Program-made: the position numbers and the translations under genes
Shown here: positions 14,618 to 60,023 of the stretch, one piece after another
How positions within the stretch are numbered: position 1 is the first letter of the stretch
Layout of the letters: each line of letters starts with the position of its first letter
Virus record (IMG/VR): IMGVR_UViG_3300008108_005458
Location: 1 to 64,000 of that record
Strand: one strand, 5' to 3'
From: a virus
DNA: 64,000 nucleotides
The notes under the pieces: generated by a model
What the model saw: the letters and a program-made list of their open reading frames with translations, nothing else
What the model was told of the DNA's origin: nothing
Database searches by the model: none

Positions 14618-15564
14618 ATGAAACCAATAGGTTCTGAAAAAATAGAAAACGTAGACGATAAATTAGCTAGGATCTTAGAGATTGCTGGTATTAAAAAAGA
14701 ATTGGTTACTGAAAGTGCGCCAGTTCTTGGTCATTTGTCTAATGTATTACACGAAGCCGTAGCGGCTAACGGTACCGAATATGGTATTGTACAAGAAGAA
14801 AAACACGTTTACATTAAAACTAAAAATGAAAACGGTGAATATGATTATTTAACAGGTGTTCAAAACATTCATGAGCATTCTTACAAATCATACGCTGATG
14901 CTTTAAAACACTTAAATATGATGTTTAGAGAAATTAACGAATCTGTTGATTTTAAAGAAAACATCGATGTTTTAAAAAAAAAAGTATAACTGAGCGTTAT
15001 ATCCTAAAACTTAAGAATACTGGTACCGCACCAGCAACCGATACAACGGTTGATTCGGGCATTGATACCACAGCTGCACCATCGGAAGAACCTGCGGATT
15101 TAGCCACAGATTTCTCAACTGAAACACCAGCTGATACAGCTGTCGATACAACTACAGACCCAGCATTAGATCCAGCCGCTGCAACCGCAGAAGAACCAGC
15201 TCAAGAAACTGGGGCTGAAAACACTGATGAACCAATTTTAAAAACGGTTCAAAAACTCACTGGTAAATTAACCCAAAAAATGAGAGATGGTTCTCAGGAA
15301 TTAGAATCAAAAGATTATAAATACGTTGTTAATTCAATCTTATCTGCAATCGATATGACAAAGATAACAGAAGAAGATATGAATGATATGTTAAATAAAC
15401 TTCAAAATAAAGATTCTGAAGATACAACAGAAGCCGAACCAACAGCTGAACCAGGTGCTGAAGAAATGGCACCAGAACAACCAGTTCAAGAACAACCAAA
15501 AGATTATTTAAGAAGAATACATAAATCAGTTGTGGACGAATTTCTAAATGAAATAAATAAATAA
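14618..15564 (+). CDS. Virion-type protein made by probable -1 frameshift
   Basis: The zero frame (14618-14989) gives 123 aa with NENGEYDYLTGVQN and YADALKHLNMMFREIN, a pattern I associate with virion proteins of T4-like aquatic phages. It stops just after a run of ten A (14974-14983). Slipping back one base in that run (A AAA AAA) opens a frame without stops from 14983 to 15564: SITERYILKLKN, then an acidic Ala/Thr/Pro linker, then KTVQKLTGKLTQKMRDGSQE and a helical C-terminus. The product is about 315 aa. Slippage may be ribosomal or transcriptional; a single-base assembly error in the homopolymer is the main alternative. The N-terminus ends ELVTESA, compatible with a prohead-protease site. 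Confidence 0.75.
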
Positions 15565-32058: not shown

Positions 32059-32133
32059 GGCTCTATGGTGTAGCGGCAACATAGGAGACTCTAAATCTCA
32101 CAGTCACGGGTTCGAACCCCGTTAGGGCCACCA
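32059..32133 (+). tRNA. Amber suppressor tRNA (anticodon CUA)
   Basis: 75 nt including an encoded CCA. Acceptor GGCTCTA/TAGGGCC with discriminator A, U8, A14, D arm GTG/CAT, T arm ACGGG-TTCGAAC-CCCGT. Anticodon arm GGAGA-CTCTAAA-TCTCA has a G-A mismatch at 27-43 but four good pairs; the 7-nt loop has U33 and A37, giving anticodon CUA, which reads UAG. The charged amino acid cannot be read from sequence. Two genes upstream in the same operon carry early in-frame TAG codons. TAG is also used as an ordinary stop at 16553, 48416 and 51225, so suppression is probably partial. Confidence 0.8.
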
Positions 32134-34385: not shown

Positions 34386-35276
34386 ATGAAAAAAATTACC
34401 TTAAACGAAGAACTTACCAGAATGCAAGAAATGATGGGTGTTAAGCATACTAGCCCAAGTGGTAAGGTTACAAATATGTCACCAGAAGATGATGACTATG
34501 AAATTAATTATGGTAAAGATGCCATAAAAGAACTTTCTCCTTCAGACATAGTTGGTTCAATGAGAGAAGAAGAGACTGATGAAAATACGGAAGTCCTTAA
34601 TAAATTCAAAGACCAATACGGAGACAAAAAAGGTGAAAAAATTTATTACGCAACTGCTAATAGTCAGGATAGAGATCCAGAAACTTTTGAAAAGAATGAA
34701 GAGTCTGCAATTGGTGGATGGGATCTTGCTATGGAAGAAGACGCTAGAGTTGATTCTGATAATAGGGTTGATTATCTTGCAAATGCGTTAGAACATATTT
34801 GGAATATGGGTAGTGGTAAAAATGATATTGATTTCAAATCAGTCGCCCAATCACTTTGTGATGATATGTTCGGAGAACCAGAAGAAAATACAGATGAAAT
34901 TCCAGGTTTTGAGGGTACCAAAGACGCTTTAGATGATTTAAGTATCAGAGAAGAAGAAAAATCTTTCATGGAAACAAGAGGTGGTGCAGAAGGTCCAGTT
35001 TATGAAAATGAAGAAATGGGTGAGGGTAAAAAATTTCAACAAGAAACGTATTTTGAAACACAAGCTGGTGCTTTAGAATCGGCTAAAGAATACGCAGCTC
35101 AAAAAGGCTATGTTGCTAACTTTGAAAGTATAACACCACAACATGTTGCTTATGGTCAAACCGTTAGTTACAGCGTTGAATTAATGAAGGATGGTATGCC
35201 AGTTAAAAAAATGTTACAGATATCTTTATATAGAATGGAATCTGGTAGGTATGAGCTAACGAATTATATTAACTAA
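34386..35276 (+). CDS. Putative packaged head protein, CTS type
   Basis: 296 aa. N-terminus MKKITLNEELTRMQEMMGV is a capsid-targeting-like helix. Residues 25-215 are acidic and low complexity to helical (EEETDENTEVLNKFKDQYGD, EEVE-rich). The C-terminal 80 residues form a compact domain (QQETYFETQAGALESAKEYA, then VSYSVELMKDG). Acidic internal head proteins are common in T4-like phages. It is followed after 1 nt by a membrane-protein gene. Confidence 0.72.
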   Translation: MKKITLNEELTRMQEMMGVKHTSPSGKVTNMSPEDDDYEINYGKDAIKELSPSDIVGSMREEETDENTEVLNKFKDQYGDKKGEKIYYATANSQDRDPETFEKNEESAIGGWDLAMEEDARVDSDNRVDYLANALEHIWNMGSGKNDIDFKSVAQSLCDDMFGEPEENTDEIPGFEGTKDALDDLSIREEEKSFMETRGGAEGPVYENEEMGEGKKFQQETYFETQAGALESAKEYAAQKGYVANFESITPQHVAYGQTVSYSVELMKDGMPVKKMLQISLYRMESGRYELTNYIN

Positions 35277-36782: not shown

Positions 36783-37316
36783 ATGCAAAACATTAACGAA
36801 CAAATATCACGTATAAAATCCATGATGGGTTTAAATGAAGATGGGTCAACACCACAATCACAAAACCCTACTGGTAAAACTAAACGTAAATGGGATAGCG
36901 GTGTTGCTAGAAGCGGACCAGCTAACCCTATCGGTGTTGCACCGTCTAGTGTAAGAACAACACATGGTAGAGCTAATCCTATTGAATTAGCCGAAGATGA
37001 CTCAACAAAACTTGAATCATTCGCTGAGACAAGATTGGGTGGTGCTGAAACAATTGCTAGTAACGCCAAAGAAAAAGGTGGTGCTGCGTTATTAACCTAT
37101 CACCATTTCGAAGTGAAATTAGAATATTACGAAAAAGCTTCCAAAGGTGAGTTGGATATGGAAGACGCTAAAAAAGAATACAAAGATTTGTTAGAAAAAC
37201 TATACACATCCACAAAAAGTGATATGGGTATTGAACAAATAGATTTTCAAGAGCTACTCGGGAAAATGGAAGTCCTGGGGGAGTTGATAATTAAAGAAAA
37301 TGAAAAAGGAGCTTAA
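36783..37316 (+). CDS. Putative packaged head protein, CTS type
   Basis: 177 aa. N-terminus MQNINEQISRIKSMMGLNE then DGS, a clean L-N-E site after 19 residues. The following 40 residues are basic and disordered (SQNPTGKTKRKWDSGVARSG); residues 70-177 are helical (HFEVKLEYYEKASKGELDME). It starts 4 nt after the LamG gene. If cleaved in the head, the mature protein would begin DGSTPQS. Confidence 0.75.
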   Translation: MQNINEQISRIKSMMGLNEDGSTPQSQNPTGKTKRKWDSGVARSGPANPIGVAPSSVRTTHGRANPIELAEDDSTKLESFAETRLGGAETIASNAKEKGGAALLTYHHFEVKLEYYEKASKGELDMEDAKKEYKDLLEKLYTSTKSDMGIEQIDFQELLGKMEVLGELIIKENEKGA

Positions 37317-39733: not shown

Positions 39734-40651
39734 TTAGTTTATTGTTTGAGTTTTAAATAATTCTTCGTTATACCTACTGATTTTTTCAGTCATATTAATA
39801 AGCTCCTCAAAAGTATCTGATAACTGATAAATTGTCATAGCGTGATTATCCAATTGATTCGCCAGGTCATCTAACTCACTAACATTATCTGGATATTCAC
39901 CGACTTCATACATCTCAACGATGTTATAAAACTTGTTATATTTATTTTCAAGATATTTTTGACTCTCATCCATTTTTTTTTGGGCGGCTTTCATCTTTTC
40001 CAAGTTTTCAAAAATGCTAACAAGTGATGAATTAACCACAGCTGATCCAAATTTTTCGATCAATGCTACGCCCATCTGGATATCTTTTTTTGCCTCAGCA
40101 ACGAATTCATCAATTTTTGATGGGTCGTATGAAATACCCTCTTCGTTTAATGAAACTATTTCATTTATTTGAAAAATTTTACCACCAGGTTTGTTGATCA
40201 TCTCAACTTCACGAGCATTTGTAACGGGTTCCTCAGAATCTTTGTAAACAAAGGTATCATATTTGTAAGGATCGTATGTTATTGATTTTGAACTACTTGG
40301 TGATGGAATGTCTGTTGATTGATATGGTTTAAAATCAATTAAATCACCAATAACGAATGCGTGCACATTCTTTGACATCTCAGCTCTAACTTTTTCTTTA
40401 CCGCCTTGGCGTACTCTAAATTCAACATTTTTAAGTTTTACATAATCAGCATGTGCTATTACTAAACTTTTATATTGAATTGAGAATGTTTTTTTATGGA
40501 GATTATAGTATACCATAACCCTTTTACCTATATGAGAATCCTCAGCAGGCGCTTCATCATCTGTACCAGCAAACATATCCAATTGGTCTTCATTCAAGCC
40601 CATCATTGAACGTATCTTAGCTATTTCTTCTGTTAATATTTCTTTTTTCAT
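39734..40651 (-). CDS. Putative packaged head protein, CTS type
   Basis: 305 aa. N-terminus MKKEILTEEIAKIRSMMG-LNE then DQ. After it lies a small beta domain (MVYYNLHKKTFSIQYKSLVI and EFRVRQGGKEKVRAEMSKN; about 40-130) resembling the phage 'N4-gp56 to DUF' type of hydroxylated-basic domains only loosely, and a long coiled-coil C-terminal part (LEKMKAAQKKMDESQKYLEN). Function unknown. Directly downstream of another CTS gene with no gap. Confidence 0.72.
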   Translation of the reverse strand: MKKEILTEEIAKIRSMMGLNEDQLDMFAGTDDEAPAEDSHIGKRVMVYYNLHKKTFSIQYKSLVIAHADYVKLKNVEFRVRQGGKEKVRAEMSKNVHAFVIGDLIDFKPYQSTDIPSPSSSKSITYDPYKYDTFVYKDSEEPVTNAREVEMINKPGGKIFQINEIVSLNEEGISYDPSKIDEFVAEAKKDIQMGVALIEKFGSAVVNSSLVSIFENLEKMKAAQKKMDESQKYLENKYNKFYNIVEMYEVGEYPDNVSELDDLANQLDNHAMTIYQLSDTFEELINMTEKISRYNEELFKTQTIN

Positions 40652-41443
40652 TTACGAGAACATTTTTGACACATTTTCATACCATTCTGGAAAATATCTT
40701 CTTAGATATAATCTCATAGCTTTCATAACTAAACTATCCCTATCAGTTTTATATTCTTCCCAATCGCTCCAATAATCATCCACAGCTTCCCCAGCAGCAC
40801 TTTTTAAATCATCAAACATCCCAAAACTAAACTCTGTTGGTTGGTTGAGGCTATCATGGATCGTTTTATTCATGTATCCTTGATCAGAACCACCCCAATC
40901 CTCATCGATTGCACCAGACTCGACATCATCGTAATTTTTTGAAGCGTATTTGTTAGCTTCTTCCTCATCATGAGCATCGATCATAGCTTGATCCTCTTGT
41001 GATATTAAATCATCAAAAGAAACCATTTTTTCTTCTGGGTCAATAGCTTCATAAACATCTGGGCCTTCGTAACTTTCAAGCGCTTTTTCGATTAACTCTG
41101 GGTATTTTTTTGAAAATCTTTCACACTCCTCATCAGATAAGTCCATATCCTCACCTTTCCAAAATAAATTACTCGCAACCCAACTACCATCCATTCTACC
41201 ATCAAGACCCATATCAGCGATATCAACTTCTTTACCATCTAATTCATATCTTTCATTTGAATCGTCATTAGATCTGATAGAATCAGCGTACTCTTTATCC
41301 ATTTTACTCGTATTGTCAATATACCCAGCTGTTCCTTTAGAATTGGTAACACCACCCATTTGAGCGGTATTGAATATATTTTCATTAAGACCCATTATTT
41401 TACGCATCTTTTTAATTTCTTCATTTAAAATAGGTTTTTTCAT
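40652..41443 (-). CDS. Putative packaged head protein, CTS type
   Basis: 263 aa, strongly acidic. N-terminus MKKPILNEEIKKMRKIMG-LNE then NI. The rest is acidic and helical (DEECERFSKKYPELIEKALE, QEDQAMIDAHDEEEANKYAS) with a more basic C-terminus (YLRRYFPEWYENVSKMF). Composition resembles internal head proteins. The stop abuts the ATG of the next gene. Confidence 0.72.
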   Translation of the reverse strand: MKKPILNEEIKKMRKIMGLNENIFNTAQMGGVTNSKGTAGYIDNTSKMDKEYADSIRSNDDSNERYELDGKEVDIADMGLDGRMDGSWVASNLFWKGEDMDLSDEECERFSKKYPELIEKALESYEGPDVYEAIDPEEKMVSFDDLISQEDQAMIDAHDEEEANKYASKNYDDVESGAIDEDWGGSDQGYMNKTIHDSLNQPTEFSFGMFDDLKSAAGEAVDDYWSDWEEYKTDRDSLVMKAMRLYLRRYFPEWYENVSKMFS

Positions 41444-44096: not shown

Positions 44097-44951
44097 TTAG
44101 AGTTTACACTCAACACTTGTTTTAATTATTTCGTATGTACTTTCGTTTAATGGTACTTCCACTGGGGAGTCTTTTTTGAGAATGCCGAGTATCTCATCAT
44201 AAGATTTGCAGATATCTTGTTCAAGTTCTTCAACAGATGGTTTATCTTTGAAACCACCGCTTGGGTAACCACCACCCATTTTAACTAAGTTTCCGTTAAC
44301 GTCAAATAAAATTCTATCACCAAGGGATACCAAACGGCCTTCCTTAAAATAACCAGCCATTAATTTACCTCTGTCAGATACAATACCGATCGTTTCGTTT
44401 GAATCAGCCTCTTCTAAACTAGCCCAGTTTTTTTTTACCTCATCTGGTGTAACTGGACCGATGTTGTTTTTTTCTCTGTAAGCTTGAGCTTTAACACCCT
44501 TTAAAATATTTTCAAGAATTTTGGCAACATCTTCGTAATCAAGATCTTTGTATTTCTCATCGATCAAATCATTTATCTCCATGTATAAATTACCGCTTCT
44601 GTTAGAAAGGTCTTCACCTAGTGGGCTTGGGTTGTAACCCATCTCACCGTTGGTGCTTTCGTTTTCAATCTTTTGTGCACCATATCTGATCCCTTTTAAA
44701 AAATCCTCAACACTATCAAACTTACCAGTCAATGTACTTTCTTCATACACGCTTATGCTACCATCAATGTTACCATATACTCTATGGCCAATCTCAAGAA
44801 CATAAGGTGCAATCTTATGTAAATCACCAACAACGCTTTCTAACTCGTGCATAATTGTTGTATCATAGTAAACACCACTGATGTTTCTACCTTCATTAAG
44901 TCCCATCATCTTGCGGATCTTAGCGATTTCGTTTAACATATTCTTTTCCAT
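44097..44951 (-). CDS. Putative packaged head protein, CTS type
   Basis: 284 aa. N-terminus MEKNMLNEIAKIRKMMGLNE then GRN. Mature part is mixed alpha/beta (TIMHELESVVGDLHKIAPYV, NIDGSISVYEESTLTGKFDS, DRGKLMAGYFKEGRLVSLG). No enzyme motif found. Preceded by a TATTTAT motif. Confidence 0.72.
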   Translation of the reverse strand: MEKNMLNEIAKIRKMMGLNEGRNISGVYYDTTIMHELESVVGDLHKIAPYVLEIGHRVYGNIDGSISVYEESTLTGKFDSVEDFLKGIRYGAQKIENESTNGEMGYNPSPLGEDLSNRSGNLYMEINDLIDEKYKDLDYEDVAKILENILKGVKAQAYREKNNIGPVTPDEVKKNWASLEEADSNETIGIVSDRGKLMAGYFKEGRLVSLGDRILFDVNGNLVKMGGGYPSGGFKDKPSVEELEQDICKSYDEILGILKKDSPVEVPLNESTYEIIKTSVECKL

Positions 44952-45970: not shown

Positions 45971-45997
45971 AAATCCCGCCAAAAGCGGGATTTTTTA
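45971..45997 (+). terminator. Intrinsic terminator
   Basis: AAATCCCGC/GCGGGATTTTTT hairpin. Confidence 0.85.
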
Positions 45998-46036: not shown

Positions 46037-46222
46037 ATGACAAATGAAGAGATTACAGAGGAAATTTACCACGAAGCCTTCACTGAAGGATTCATTGATG
46101 AATTGAGACAAAAAATTGATGAATTTAAGTTTTCAAAGGATCATCATAAACTTCCGCACCATGAAATGGTGTATAAAGCCTATTTTTTAGTGAAATCTGG
46201 TGAAATAAATGGGAAATCTTAA
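46037..46222 (+). CDS. Small acidic protein, 61 aa
   Basis: MTNEEITEEIYHEAFTEGF then helical sequence with His cluster (KDHHKLPHHEMVYKAYFLVK). Not recognised. It lies 14 nt upstream of the GNAT gene and is probably read through into the TATTTAT-driven group. Confidence 0.55.
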   Translation: MTNEEITEEIYHEAFTEGFIDELRQKIDEFKFSKDHHKLPHHEMVYKAYFLVKSGEINGKS

Positions 46223-46223
46223 G

Positions 46224-46230
46224 TATTTAT
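46224..46230 (+). promoter_or_regulatory. Late-type TATTTAT motif
   Basis: AGTATTTATAAGAA, 6 nt upstream of the ATG at 46237. Confidence 0.5.
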
Positions 46231-46236
46231 AAGAAC

Positions 46237-46617
46237 ATGAACGTTTTTGACCAATTAGGAGCCAGACATCCAGATGTTAGATATGAACTTTACCCAACAA
46301 TTAAGGGTAATGAGAAGCGTGTATATCTCACAGGATTCATGGTACCTTATACAATGAGGGGGAAGGGTCTTGGAACGGAATTTATGGAAGATCTTATTAA
46401 GGTTGCCGATGAAAATGGGTTTAAGATAACTCTAACACCATCAAGCAGCTACGGTGGGAATGTAACAAGGTTAAAACAGTTCTATAAAGGGTTCGGATTT
46501 GTTGAAAACAAAGGGCAAAACAGAGACTTCTCACACAGAGAAGATATGTACAGAAATCCACAGGGGTTAAACGAAAATTTGAAAAGATTAAAAGAAATAA
46601 TAGATTCAAATTTTTAA
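46237..46617 (+). CDS. GNAT acetyltransferase with C-terminal packaging tag
   Basis: 126 aa. GNAT core: a strand FMVPYTMRGKGLGTEFM with the acetyl-CoA-binding R-G-K-G-L-G (about 41-46), ITLTPSSSYGG, and LKQFYKGFGFVENKG. It should acetylate a protein or small molecule. The last 18 residues, GLNENLKRLKEIIDSN, repeat the L-N-E plus amphipathic-helix pattern found at the N-termini of the other head-targeted proteins. This suggests packaging and injection with DNA. Confidence 0.78.
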   Translation: MNVFDQLGARHPDVRYELYPTIKGNEKRVYLTGFMVPYTMRGKGLGTEFMEDLIKVADENGFKITLTPSSSYGGNVTRLKQFYKGFGFVENKGQNRDFSHREDMYRNPQGLNENLKRLKEIIDSNF

Positions 46618-46628
46618 AGAAAAAATTA

Positions 46629-46635
46629 TATTTAT
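46629..46635 (+). promoter_or_regulatory. Late-type TATTTAT motif
   Basis: TTATATTTATATT, 6 nt upstream of the ATG at 46642. Confidence 0.5.
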
Positions 46636-46641
46636 ATTAGT

Positions 46642-47094
46642 ATGGGAATCGAATTAAAAAAGAAAAAACAACTCATAGAGAGATTAAACAGAAGATTGCT
46701 TTCTGAATCTGAAATGGCTTGCCCAAGGGCGACTCAGGATCTTGAGTTGAATACCAGAAATAGAAATAAATCAATAGAGGCAGAATATATCCAATACGGC
46801 CCATTGAATTTAAATGACGAGGAGTATTGGGAAAGATATGCCAAAAAATGGAAGACTGAACCAGAGGTTGCAAAGAAATCCAATTGCGGTAATTGCGTTG
46901 CTTTCGATATCTCCCCAAGAATGGACGAGTGTATGCCAGGTGAAGTTTCCGATGAAGAAGGTAGATTGGGTTATTGCTGGATGCACCATTTTAAATGTCA
47001 CTCAGCTCGCACCTGTTACACCTGGGCGGCTGGTGGTCCGATAACCGATGATAAGGTATCATATGATTGGCAACAAAAAAACCAAAACGATTAA
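46642..47094 (+). CDS. Cys-rich, probably metal-binding protein
   Basis: 150 aa. A basic amphipathic N-terminus (MGIELKKKKQLIERLNRRL, then LSESEM with an L-x-E site) may be a diverged packaging peptide. The C-terminal half has CGNCVAFDIS, DECMPG, YCWMHHFKCHSARTCYTW: eight Cys and two His suited to zinc or an Fe-S cluster. Similar Cys-rich proteins are found in T4-like phages with no assigned role. One base separates it from the next gene. Confidence 0.7.
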   Translation: MGIELKKKKQLIERLNRRLLSESEMACPRATQDLELNTRNRNKSIEAEYIQYGPLNLNDEEYWERYAKKWKTEPEVAKKSNCGNCVAFDISPRMDECMPGEVSDEEGRLGYCWMHHFKCHSARTCYTWAAGGPITDDKVSYDWQQKNQND

Positions 47095-47095
47095 G

Positions 47096-48418
47096 ATGGA
47101 ACAAAAAGATTTAAATAGACTTGTGGAAGTAATGGGCTTGATCAATGATGATCTTGTTGTTGAGTCTTTTGACGTTATTAACGAGGAGAAAAAGAAAGCG
47201 GACCGTTGTCTTAGAATAGCGAGAAGAAAATACGACAAACCATCAGCATACAGATCTGGTGCCATTGTTCAGTGCAGAAGAGGAAAGATCTGGAAGGATC
47301 TTAAGGAAGAAGATATTAATGACGCACCAGAAGATGTAAAGGAACTCATATACAAAGCGCATGACGCAATCACAAGAAGAAAGGGTAAGGACTACGCTCC
47401 AGACGTTCACGAATTGCAAGCATGGGTGGATGAGTATTTGGATGGACAACAAAATGAAGCCCATTCGGACGCAAAATTTCAATTTTCAAAGGATTTAGCT
47501 GATGACCCAGAATACGCTGAATTTAAAAAGAATTCAATGTATAAGGATGAAATTGGTCAAGAAAGAACTTACGGGACACCAAATGCGGTAGGTAGGGATA
47601 GCTTTATACAGAAAAAGAAGTGGGGTAGAGTTGGCGTTGATGACTACGATCCAGATTTTGACGATGATATTGATGAAGCAAAGAAGACCGATTTCTCAAA
47701 GGAAAAGAAAAGCGGACTTCACGGATGGTTTTCAAGAAGAGGTGGTGGTGGAAGCAAAGGATGGGTTGATTGCAACACATGCAGAAACACGGACGGTAAA
47801 AAGAAATGCAAAGCATGTGGAAGACAAGCTGGTGAAAAAAGATCAAAGTATCCTTCATGCAGGCCAACACCAGCATCTTGTGGAACACCAGGAAAAGGAA
47901 AGAAATGGGGAAAGACAAAAGAAGAGTCTTACAACATGATGAATGAAGCGGAACAAAAGGAAAAGAAAAGAATTGCATTGTTGTTCATTGTGATCGACAA
48001 TAAAGTATTATTATTCAAAAGAAGCCCAGAGGAAACAACGAATCCAGGGAAATACGGAATGCTTGGTGGACACATTGAAAAAGGTGAATCACCAGAAGCA
48101 GCATTAAAAAGAGAAATTAAAGAAGAAGCTGGGGTTGAATTAAAATCGTTCAAAAAATTAAAAACATATGAATTGGATGATGTACAATTAAACGTGTTCT
48201 ACACAAACGAATTTGACACAGAGAGTATTAGATTAGATAAGAAAGAACACACAGGTAAGAAATTCTTCACATTGGAGCAACTTGATGAAATGTCTCCAGA
48301 AGAATGCATAGACACAAACAAAGGAATCGCCAGAGATTACAACAAGAAGGCGAAAGAGGATATGCAACTTAATGAGAGTGTACATAGAATGAAATCCATC
48401 ATAAGTTATGCCATATAG
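47096..48418 (+). CDS. Cys-rich domain plus Nudix hydrolase, with C-terminal packaging tag
   Basis: 440 aa from the ATG at 47096 (MEQKDLNRLVEVMGL). Residues 30-130: helical, Arg-rich. About 185-285: KKSGLHGWFSRRGGGGSKGW, then DCNTC, CKACG, CRPTPASCG, a Cys-rich domain known from phages. About 300-420: Nudix fold with GGHIEKGESPEAALKREIKE and EEAG, the full GX5EX7REUXEE box. The C-terminus MQLNESVHRMKSIISYAI repeats the LNE-helix tag. Nudix enzymes cleave nucleoside diphosphates linked to X, such as ADP-ribose or NAD. It ends in TAG. Confidence 0.82.
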   Translation: MEQKDLNRLVEVMGLINDDLVVESFDVINEEKKKADRCLRIARRKYDKPSAYRSGAIVQCRRGKIWKDLKEEDINDAPEDVKELIYKAHDAITRRKGKDYAPDVHELQAWVDEYLDGQQNEAHSDAKFQFSKDLADDPEYAEFKKNSMYKDEIGQERTYGTPNAVGRDSFIQKKKWGRVGVDDYDPDFDDDIDEAKKTDFSKEKKSGLHGWFSRRGGGGSKGWVDCNTCRNTDGKKKCKACGRQAGEKRSKYPSCRPTPASCGTPGKGKKWGKTKEESYNMMNEAEQKEKKRIALLFIVIDNKVLLFKRSPEETTNPGKYGMLGGHIEKGESPEAALKREIKEEAGVELKSFKKLKTYELDDVQLNVFYTNEFDTESIRLDKKEHTGKKFFTLEQLDEMSPEECIDTNKGIARDYNKKAKEDMQLNESVHRMKSIISYAI

Positions 48419-49904
48419 TTTAAAATCCATAGGAGATGCAAATCTCCCAATCACCCTGGTGTCCGCAACATACACCGCACTGGACACCGACTACATTATA
48501 AATGCAACATCTGGAACGTTTAATATTACCTTACCCACAGCGGTTGGTATAACAAATAAACTTTATATTATAAAGAATAGCGGGACGGGTGTTGTTACCA
48601 TTGTAACAACAGGTAGCCAAACGATTGATGGAAGTTCGGCATCAATAAACCTTACGCAAAACACAAGCATATCTATCCAAAGTGATGGATCAAACTGGAT
48701 TATTACCACAGCTTCTGCAACAGGCAATCCAACGGAGATACAATACAACAAAAACGGATCTTTCGCCTCTTCATCTAACTTAACTTATGATGATAGCACC
48801 AACACCTTTTTATCTAATGGGATTAGTGCGCTACGTAGAAAAGTGGAGATCGGCATAAACGCTGATTGGGTATTCGTAAGCAGAGCGGATGATTTGCCCG
48901 CAGCAGTTGGTGGTGTTATCACTTTGCTTGATAACATAACTTATATGTTTGTGTGTGTGGTGGACCTTCAGGGTGATCGTTTAGTGTGTGGAGACAACAC
49001 AACACTTTTGGGCGGCTCCTCGGAAAACTGTAGGATATTATCAACTGGTTTAACTGGTCAAGCTATGATATCATCAGTATACTCCTTACCGATCAGGAAT
49101 TTAACAATTGAAGCGGACGTGGCTTTAAACTTAGCTGGTAATGTTACAACATCTGCAATAGACTGGTTTGGTGTTAACTTTACCAACTGCAATACAATAG
49201 GCGTAATAAGAGATTACGCAAACGTTATCATGACGGACTGCGCTTTCTTGGAAAGCGCTTCATTAACCTTTGATGGAACCATCGGAACGGTTGGATTCGC
49301 CCAATGTTTATTTAATGGAACCACTGGTAATACCATATTTATTTTACCACCAAGTTTAACCATTTCCAGAAGATTTAGAATTATTTACAGTTCATTTGTG
49401 GTTTTATCAGGTGAAACGGGAATCAACGTATCAACCACAGCAACCATACCAGCGGATGCTTATATTTTAACATATTGCAATTTTTCGGGTGGTGGCACAT
49501 ATTTGGCTGGTCACGATCATACCTCAAACAAAGCTTTATTTATTAATAATGTTGGTATAACTAACTCAAGTAACGTTGGTCATTATTATATGCAGAACAA
49601 TGCCACTGCAACTACGGGTATAGTTCAAAACACTTATCTGAAAGCTGCTGGGACAACTGTTGTTGGGGCTGGTAACTCCCCGAAATGGACTACCGCAACT
49701 ACTAATAGATTAACTTATGCGGGTAGTATAACAACTGAATTTATAATTACTGTGGTTGGAGGTACACCAATGCCATTTGCAACACAAGACGTTATCCAAG
49801 TCGCCACTGGTGACTTTTTTGAGATATGGGTAACTAACGAGACAGGTACTCAAGCGATAACGTTAACAGATTTAAATGTGATTATACAGAAAGTTACTGG
49901 ATAA
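48408..49904 (+). CDS. Tailspike-like beta-helix protein
   Basis: 498 aa. N-terminal domain (about 1-110) has ALDTDYIINATSGTFNITLP and TIDGSSASINLTQNTSISIQ, common in phage tail-fibre heads. Residues 150-400 show short turns of a parallel beta-helix (NLTIEADVALNLAGNVTTSA, TDCAFLESASLTFDG, YCNFSGGGTYLAG). The C-terminal 100 residues may trimerise. Possible glycan-binding or lyase spike. The start overlaps the Nudix gene end by 11 nt. Confidence 0.75.
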   Translation: MPYSLKSIGDANLPITLVSATYTALDTDYIINATSGTFNITLPTAVGITNKLYIIKNSGTGVVTIVTTGSQTIDGSSASINLTQNTSISIQSDGSNWIITTASATGNPTEIQYNKNGSFASSSNLTYDDSTNTFLSNGISALRRKVEIGINADWVFVSRADDLPAAVGGVITLLDNITYMFVCVVDLQGDRLVCGDNTTLLGGSSENCRILSTGLTGQAMISSVYSLPIRNLTIEADVALNLAGNVTTSAIDWFGVNFTNCNTIGVIRDYANVIMTDCAFLESASLTFDGTIGTVGFAQCLFNGTTGNTIFILPPSLTISRRFRIIYSSFVVLSGETGINVSTTATIPADAYILTYCNFSGGGTYLAGHDHTSNKALFINNVGITNSSNVGHYYMQNNATATTGIVQNTYLKAAGTTVVGAGNSPKWTTATTNRLTYAGSITTEFIITVVGGTPMPFATQDVIQVATGDFFEIWVTNETGTQAITLTDLNVIIQKVTG

Positions 49905-49909
49905 ATGAT

Positions 49910-50524
49910 ATGAAAAAAACTTTAAAGGAAGAAATAAACAGAATGAAGACCATGATGGGTGTCTCCGAAGAAATGATAGAGATACCCAGCGACAGCAATT
50001 TAATGAATTTCTTTCATGGTGGCGATTTGGATGAGATCAAATACGATATACAACAAAAAACTGATAGACAGCGATATGGTTCTGGTTTATACCTGACAAC
50101 ATATTATGATGTCGCAAAAAAATATGCAAAGGGCAATAGGAAGATGTATTTGGTTTCGGTACAAAAAGGTGTGGACATAAATGATAAGAAGGTGGATATG
50201 GAAACTTTAATGCAATTCCTTAATCAAAGCTTTCCCAAAAAAACGGCACAGACCATACTTAATTTAGCCAATTACAGAATACACAATGATGGCATACCAT
50301 TATATTTGGTGAATAACATATTAATAAACCACAATTACCTTAAAGGTCCCAAATCGGTTGCATGGAGAACGTTTCTGGTTGGTTTGGGTGTTGATTACGA
50401 GATCGTTGATAACGCTTTTGGTTATGGTGACACCATGATGGTTTTATATAACCCAAGTTTAATAAAGAGCGTTAAACGTATTCAACCAAAGGACACCTTA
50501 CCCACATACGATTTAAATAAATAA
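49910..50524 (+). CDS. ADP-ribosyltransferase-like protein with packaging peptide
   Basis: 204 aa. N-terminus MKKTLKEEINRMKTMMGVSE then EM: the capsid-targeting pattern with a V-S-E site. The mature part begins NLMNFFHGGDLDEIKYD and continues RYGSGLYLTTYYDVAKKYAK, matching the ART fold (H-G near strand 1, then G-x-G-L-Y-x-T and A-x-x-Y). The catalytic Glu is not obvious by eye. In T4 the packaged ART Alt modifies host RNA polymerase on injection; a similar role is inferred. Not recognised as a specific family. Confidence 0.72.
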   Translation: MKKTLKEEINRMKTMMGVSEEMIEIPSDSNLMNFFHGGDLDEIKYDIQQKTDRQRYGSGLYLTTYYDVAKKYAKGNRKMYLVSVQKGVDINDKKVDMETLMQFLNQSFPKKTAQTILNLANYRIHNDGIPLYLVNNILINHNYLKGPKSVAWRTFLVGLGVDYEIVDNAFGYGDTMMVLYNPSLIKSVKRIQPKDTLPTYDLNK

Positions 50525-50556: not shown

Positions 50557-50586
50557 GCCCTCTTAGCGATAAGGGGGTTTTTTATT
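50557..50586. terminator. Terminator between convergent genes
   Basis: CCCTCTTA/TAAGGGGG with one mismatch and a T run, between 49910(+) and 50587(-). Confidence 0.6.
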
Positions 50587-51180
50587 TTACCCGTTTGCCA
50601 TTCTTTTTCTGTCGTTGGAATTTGGTCTTGCGCTGTAGCTATATGTATTTGGATTATACAACGATCTGCTGCTTTGTTGATTTAAGCGCACAACAATGGA
50701 ATATCTGTCAGCAAAACCGCTACCGCTCTCAACAAATTTAACCTCACCAGACATTTGATCTGGGTATTTGGATAAAACATCCTGAAGAACTTTTTCAGCC
50801 TCTTGTTTTGTTGGGAAACCAATTACGTGTATGTAATATACATTATAGTGAATTGTAATTTCGCTGAAATCTTTGCTGTTGATGTCAATGGATTTACCAA
50901 GTTTACCTAGGCTATCATTTTGATAATACATTGAAACCTTTTGTTTGTATTCAATGGGTTCACCCTTAATGTTCATCATTGGCTTACCCTCTTTGTCCAA
51001 AGGTGTATTAATGGGTTGTTTCTTAAGATCAAGATAAAGATTTTTGGCAACACCACCCATGATGGTTGTATCCGCCTCTTCAAGACTCATTTCATTTTCA
51101 TTGATGATATTCTCACCCATAAAGTTCATAAGACCTTTGATTTTACTTAATTCCTCATTTAACATATTTTTGTTACCCAT
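50587..51180 (-). CDS. Putative packaged head protein, CTS type
   Basis: 197 aa. N-terminus MGNKNMLNEELSKIKGLM followed by ENIINE-NE, an extended version of the targeting peptide. The mature part has YYIHVIGFPTKQEAEKVLQD, a SPOR-like beta-alpha pattern, and a disordered Ser/Tyr/Arg-rich tail (SYSARPNSNDRKRMANG). Function unknown. Confidence 0.7.
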   Translation of the reverse strand: MGNKNMLNEELSKIKGLMNFMGENIINENEMSLEEADTTIMGGVAKNLYLDLKKQPINTPLDKEGKPMMNIKGEPIEYKQKVSMYYQNDSLGKLGKSIDINSKDFSEITIHYNVYYIHVIGFPTKQEAEKVLQDVLSKYPDQMSGEVKFVESGSGFADRYSIVVRLNQQSSRSLYNPNTYSYSARPNSNDRKRMANG

Positions 51181-59705: not shown

Positions 59706-60023
59706 TCAAGTCAACAACAACTCGCCACTTCGTTCTTCCATAAGACTATCAAGTCTTTTAAGGTTTTCTAACAACCTCTCTCTTTCTTTACGATAGATTA
59801 AGTAATTGTAGTCCATAACCTCTTTGGAAAGTCTTTGCCACTTATTTTTGAACACTTGAAAGCAATTATCTGCTACTTCAATGTGTGCCTCGTGGACGCA
59901 AGATGAAAGGATATGTATTACTCGTTCAAAGTCTTTCATACTTTCCAACTGCGTGTTAATTTTTTGTTCTTCTAATTGGTCTTGGTCGGGAATACCCGCT
60001 AATTTTCTTAAAATGTTTGACAT
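59706..60023 (-). CDS. Helical early protein, 105 aa
   Basis: MSNILRKLAGIPDQDQLEEQ, then FERVIHILSSCVHEAHIEVA and RKERERLLENLKRLDSLMEE. All-helical, charged. No family recognised. Confidence 0.6.
   Translation of the reverse strand: MSNILRKLAGIPDQDQLEEQKINTQLESMKDFERVIHILSSCVHEAHIEVADNCFQVFKNKWQRLSKEVMDYNYLIYRKERERLLENLKRLDSLMEERSGELLLT

Follow-up and report, generated by a model that had tools for sequence, protein, structure and literature searches.

A short helical peptide shared by GNAT, Nudix and ADP-ribosyltransferase-like proteins of a virus resembles the scaffold C-terminus of related phages

The gene unit and its enzymes

In the present work, we analysed a 64,000-nt stretch of IMG/VR virus record IMGVR_UViG_3300008108_005458 (the window, whose positions serve as coordinates) and focused on a unit of plus-strand genes (46037-50524) that lies between two terminator-like hairpins. 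The source virus is T4-like, and its host probably belongs to the Bacteroidota. The unit encodes a GNAT protein, a Nudix fusion protein and an ADP-ribosyltransferase (ART)-like protein, which carry a common short peptide, the LNE-helix (below, the tag). The helix is C-terminal on the GNAT and Nudix proteins and N-terminal on the ART-like protein (49910-50524; below, 49910), the N-terminus of which reads MKKTLKEEINRMKTMMGVSEE; the coordinates and sequences given for the three proteins in the original prediction were confirmed (Table 1). Comparison with related phages showed that the tag is similar in sequence to the C-terminal helix of their gp22-like scaffold, and we propose that it may direct these enzymes into the phage head.

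The Nudix fusion scored 61.1 bits with PF00293 against a cut-off of 21.1 (E=1.4e-16), and its Nudix box, GHIEKGESPEAALKREIKEEAGV, agrees with the Gx5Ex7REUxEExGU pattern. The GNAT protein also exceeded its cut-off (PF00583, 24.8 against 20.7 bits), with the match confined to the C-terminal half of the profile; the closest annotated relatives of the domain, as found using tblastn, sit in DarB-like polyvalent phage proteins. For 49910, two related profiles were matched, ART-PolyVal (PF18760; 8.9e-6, 27.0 against a gathering score of 31.2) and DUF3990 (5.5e-6), both below the cut-off. A tagged neighbour protein in a separate phage, G056, reached 39.1 with ART-PolyVal, which is above the Pfam cut-off. 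In our alignment of the orthologues, H36 and Y61 of 49910 were kept, and a methionine occupied the place expected for the glutamate, the third usual ART catalytic residue, which was not evident in 49910. Searches of the PDB using phmmer and hmmsearch gave a best match of only E=0.18, to PARP4, and two AlphaFold2 (AF2) runs on 4 and 5 sequences had confidence scores (pLDDT) of 50 and 43, which were too poor for fold comparison. An hhalign link between the two families of tagged ARTs (93%) was set aside, as the common tag contributes to the score. Judged by its profiles, 49910 is probably an ADP-ribosyltransferase, as had been predicted; ART-PolyVal and DUF3990 were the only matches, and 49910 was not recognised as Alt, ModA or ModB. 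Homologues of ART-PolyVal were also observed in the Rak2-like jumbo phages CBB, Munch and GAP32 (L383:6004-6603, L384:4001-4690 and L385:4004-4603), where N-ends of about 15 residues finish in IMEG; the GAP32 scaffold gave no clear match to the N-end of the GAP32 ART.

Table 1. Features of the gene unit and tagged N-termini elsewhere in the window (ranks are among 41,761 positions, using the clade-B scaffold matrix unless stated otherwise)
Feature	Position	Strand	Remarks
N-terminal tag MKKITLNEELTRMQEMMGV	34386..34442	+	296-aa protein; rank 2
N-terminal tag MQNINEQISRIKSMMGLNE	36783..36839	+	177-aa protein; rank 1
N-terminal tag MKKEILTEEIAKIRSMMGLNE	40589..40651	-	305-aa protein with Phage_L5_gp82 domain; rank 31
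N-terminal tag MKKPILNEEIKKMRKIMGLNE	41381..41443	-	263-aa protein; rank 4
N-terminal tag MEKNMLNEIAKIRKMMGLNE	44892..44951	-	284-aa protein; rank 47
Terminator-like hairpin	45971..45993	+	5' of the unit
Small ORF	46037..46222	+	Opening gene of the inter-terminator unit; ORF list
GNAT-domain protein	46237..46617	+	126 aa; Pfam PF00583, PHROG 10691, tblastn
GNAT C-terminal tag GLNENLKRLKEIIDSNF	46564..46614	+	Rank 7; homologues L008/L022 have an internal tag at this place
Cys-rich protein, no assigned function	46642..47094	+	Homologue L028 bears the tag of a different phage clade
DUF5872-like + Nudix fusion	ORF 47048..48418	+	Likely ATG start 47096; Pfam NUDIX 308-413, DUF5872 weak 48-83
Nudix degenerate N-terminal tag MEQKDLNRLVEVMGLIND	47096..47149	+	At the likely real start; L027 orthologue reads MENNLNENVNRLREIMSLNE there
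Nudix domain	47969..48286	+	Complete Nudix box; Pfam, box read from the sequence
Nudix C-terminal tag QLNESVHRMKSIISYAI	48365..48415	+	Rank 8 (clade B), 5 (clade A); conserved in orthologues
498-aa protein	48408..49904	+	No confident family; in the GNAT-Nudix-ART unit
ART-like protein	49910..50524	+	H36 in FFHGG, Y61 in GSGLYLTT; ART-PolyVal/DUF3990 below cut-off; tagged G056 orthologue, 54% identity
ART-like N-terminal tag MKKTLKEEINRMKTMMGVSE	49910..49969	+	Rank 3
Terminator-like hairpin	50557..50578	+	3' of the ART gene
N-terminal tag MGNKNMLNEELSKIKGLMNF	51121..51180	-	197-aa protein; rank 9

Carriers of the tag and the adjoining protease-type sites

The N-terminal form of the tag was present on seven window proteins (34386, 36783, 39734, 40652, 44097, 49910 and 50587). 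Thirty-seven tagged proteins could be aligned only across the first ~18 columns and had nothing in common except the tag. A short peptide that is common to the ends of unrelated proteins within one phage is characteristic of packaging by the T4 capsid-targeting sequence (CTS), and this pattern was found here. A tblastn search of phages with the tag alone gave no match, and homologues of the 177-residue protein (36783) in Flavobacterium phage immuto (MW353175) and in L024/L025 were without it. The Nudix orthologues keep C-terminal tags (QLNETIQRMKSIIGL, QLNETLLRMKSIINR and KLDETILRMKSIINK). In G056, a phage of 321 kb, five neighbouring genes are tagged (L382:4488-8099), including those for a GNAT-reading protein, the orthologue of 49910 and an ART-PolyVal protein; adjoining them is the gene for a protein whose N-terminal part is ART-like and which bears a tag internally (L382:8121-10706).

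The placement of the tag was found to be modular. GNAT, tag and Nudix form a single ORF in L014 and L022, and GNAT and Nudix are also one ORF in L015. GNAT is joined to further domains in L008, G040 and L027, with its tag being the joint in L008, L022 and L027, and in L024/L025 the tag lies between Nudix and a zinc-ribbon domain. It is worth adding that the G040 fusion (G040:53339-54436) joins GNAT to a domain with an HHELTH (HExxH-like) metallopeptidase motif. The T4 prohead protease recognises gp21-type sites, L/I/V-x-E. An [LIVM]xE triplet followed 37 of the 42 N-terminal tags against a background of 14%; this count is biased by the presence of LNE in the search model, but 12 of the triplets are outside the standard register. 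In the C-terminal tags and the scaffolds, an LNE, ISE or IES triplet sits before the helix.

The tag and the scaffold C-terminus

A DNA pattern for the tag was used to find contigs that bear the tag plus gp23, and the ORF flanked by the genes for the S77 prohead protease and gp23 was taken to encode the scaffold. Among the relatives that possess head genes, G040 is the nearest; it is syntenic with the gene cluster of the window at ~85% nucleotide identity, and its contig bears tagged genes, gp21, the scaffold, which ends in KLNESTAYQNPQLSRMLDIIGKIK, and gp23 together. Other T4-like head genes of the window relatives, those for portal and terminase, are on L250. Going by the sample names, L250 shares its sample of origin with a contig that is identical to the window in the region of the gene unit, and it may be the missing head part. 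A position-specific scoring matrix (PSSM) of 13 columns was built for clade B from 37 distinct scaffold C-termini (80 loci) with no window data used. This matrix placed seven window tags, including both C-terminal ones, at ranks 1, 2, 3, 4, 7, 8 and 9 of 41,761 positions, and the remaining two at ranks 31 and 47. None of the 300 column-permuted matrices put seven tags into the top 20, and the reversed matrix put none there. High scores with the clade-A scaffold profile were additionally observed for the N-termini of 14618-14989 (DDKLARILEIAGI) and 59706-60023 (MSNILRKLAGI), which are possible additional tags. Reciprocally, a matrix of the window N-terminal tags put the scaffold first among the 164 C-termini of G040 (10.9 vs 4.0). 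Of 15 other head loci, 14 likewise had the scaffold in first place and one had it in second; over the whole G042 contig, the scaffold came fourth. The C-termini of all 80 clade-B scaffolds are very similar (consensus L[IN]ES..Y.NPQ..RMKDLM.K). A tag-like helix, RMKKLMGRLDTFLSK, was also observed at the C-terminus of the S77 prohead protease in several clade-B phages (L237:10121-10801, L296).

The nearest annotated phage, immuto, resembles the window virus in its T4-like head, in having tagged N-termini and in a scaffold C-end that bears this helix (IISEVSEQVSRWQKLAGIIK). Two of its non-scaffold proteins start with MKKQILSEQF[RK]RMQ[KF]LAGIITE. It differs from the window in the RMQKLAGIITE form of the tag, in having only two clear tagged proteins and in a DUF5872-like protein that is not fused to Nudix. 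In the immuto clade (A), scaffolds were found next to related capsid genes at 74 loci, and all of them have RMQKLAGI or close variants at the C-terminus; scaffold and tag change jointly, with RMQKLAGI in place of RMKxLM. Tags favour the scaffold profile of the clade to which they belong: of 51 clade-B tags, 44 did not favour the clade-A profile, and all three independently found clade-A tags, on which the clade-A part of this result rests, did. Outside these clades, the gp22 C-termini of T4, KVP40 and S-RIM8, when compared by eye, bore no resemblance to the window tag. Two adjoining proteins of L420:6916-9359 both end in ESTRRRFKILAGIK, another C-terminal LAGI helix.

A third group, the marine T4-like clade C, in which T4-like gp23 was present in 8 of the 15 contigs searched, has an N-terminal peptide of its own, MKLLxENWRxYLNE, with 117 of 122 matches being at N-termini; this is probably a T4-CTS-like tag. 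Up to 7 copies of the peptide, as MKLL[LMF]ENWR[KE][YF][LI]xE, were observed in 12.8 kb (L433:1-12830; also L388-L467), and an L028 protein with a clade-C-related N-end continues in an ART-like manner (AYHGSN).

Proposed packaging and the alternatives

Taken at the level of sequence, these similarities suggest that the LNE-helix targets proteins to the head by copying the helix at the C-terminus of the phage's gp22-like scaffold and that it may be placed N-terminally, C-terminally or internally, a reading to which we assign a probability of roughly 0.7. During prohead assembly, the tagged proteins would take the site of the scaffold end on the capsid lattice or core; the gp21-like (S77) protease would then cut at L/I/V-x-E beside the tag, thus freeing the enzymes in the DNA-filled head, and these would reach the host along with the DNA. 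As cargo of this kind, the GNAT, Nudix and ART-like enzymes might modify host proteins or nucleotides early in infection or serve in counter-defence; by analogy with Alt, the likeliest role would be counter-defence or an early change to host transcription. A metabolic link between the Nudix and ART-like enzymes, as suggested in the original prediction, would be hypothetical. A broader scheme has about even odds in our estimate: scaffold-helix mimicry would sort cargo at any protein position, the prohead protease would split multi-enzyme effectors with internal tags in the head, and the whole set would be injected at once. The idea of a shared packaging tag, already put forward in the original prediction, gains indirect support from the match to the phages' own scaffold, the protease-type sites, the unrelated carriers and the recurrence of tagged GNAT and ART neighbours in G056.

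The closest known system is the T4 CTS, which is N-terminal and not common to gp22 (PMC9958956). The likeness lies in a short N-terminal peptide on otherwise unrelated head-internal proteins, beside a prohead-protease site, as well as in the T4-like head gene set and an ART among the cargo. However, the window tag corresponds to the scaffold C-terminus and is not restricted to N-ends, being present at C-ends and between domains as well; since a CTS of the T4 type is not on the scaffold and this one is, at the C-terminus, we regard it as a variant. The C-terminal placement had been predicted to be new relative to T4 and does differ from the N-terminal CTS, but, as it matches the placement on the scaffold and is an internal joint in GNAT homologues, it is less exceptional than thought. 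In P22, the C-terminal helix-turn-helix of the scaffold is essential for capsid assembly and has been used to load engineered cargo, whereby cargo located N-terminal to the scaffold's capsid-binding end gets encapsidated (PMC9962691). Based on this, we propose that these T4-like phages may do so naturally, although their tag, unlike that of P22, is natural, has ~13-17 residues, is also found N-terminally and belongs to a T4-like head with a maturation protease. DarB-like polyvalent proteins are likewise predicted to be packaged and injected (PMC5512222) and share an ART-PolyVal-like domain and GNAT relatives with the present set, which, in contrast to those giant multidomain proteins, consists mostly of small individual proteins that share a tag. 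We found no report of a scaffold-derived tag in the open-access PMC literature.

The tag could also be a T4-type capsid-targeting propeptide that acts via another core protein or is addressed by the protease, with its scaffold likeness being incidental or due to the same protease and core environment. The T4 CTS functions without any gp22 likeness (PMC9958956), the clade C tag is unlike its scaffold, and the LxE sites beside the tags would suit such a propeptide, which is nevertheless rather unlikely given that the likeness in clades A and B is specific, reciprocal and lineage-tracking and that copies of the tag are C-terminal on the Nudix orthologues. It is feasible, and compatible with scaffold copying, that only the N-terminal tags are functional, those at the C-termini of GNAT and Nudix being leftovers of broken fusions, formerly internal tags stranded by the splitting of a gene, such as are indicated by the GNAT joints and the single GNAT-Nudix ORFs described above. 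We consider this unlikely, because the Nudix C-terminal tag is conserved, with the ORF stopping after it in several divergent orthologues, and because the scaffold itself carries the helix C-terminally. The amphipathic spacing of Leu, Ile and Met and the AF2 helix at residues 5-15 would agree with a generic helix for dimerisation or membrane contact that is unconnected with the head, yet the failure of all 300 same-composition, column-permuted profiles and the best place of the scaffold among 164 C-termini make this highly improbable.

Several observations weigh against a scaffold-copying tag. The window contig has no head genes; no profile matches the scaffold, which was assigned by position only; and the matches are non-independent, since a single motif has been copied among the tags of each genome. 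Moreover, the list of 55 virion proteins of phage CBB (PMC5259590) does not include CBB_455, which is homologous to the second tagged ART of G056, although the N-end of CBB_455 is different. In clade C, which served as a negative control, the tag was unlike the clade's scaffold C-terminus (median -3.6, best 3.3 bits), which demonstrates that the scaffold test can fail and confines the rule to clades A and B; the idea that scaffold copying holds for the tags of all phages was rejected on this basis.

Within these clades, a tag that matches the scaffold is a concrete and testable rule, which would allow the proteins that many uncultured phages probably inject to be listed by sequence alone, among them ARTs, GNATs, Nudix proteins and many unknowns. 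Additionally, it offers short natural tags for capsid loading at either protein end. Apart from the tagged genes, 16 tRNA genes are present in the window, one of which (32059-32133, called tRNA-Pyl) has the anticodon CTA and is a possible amber suppressor.

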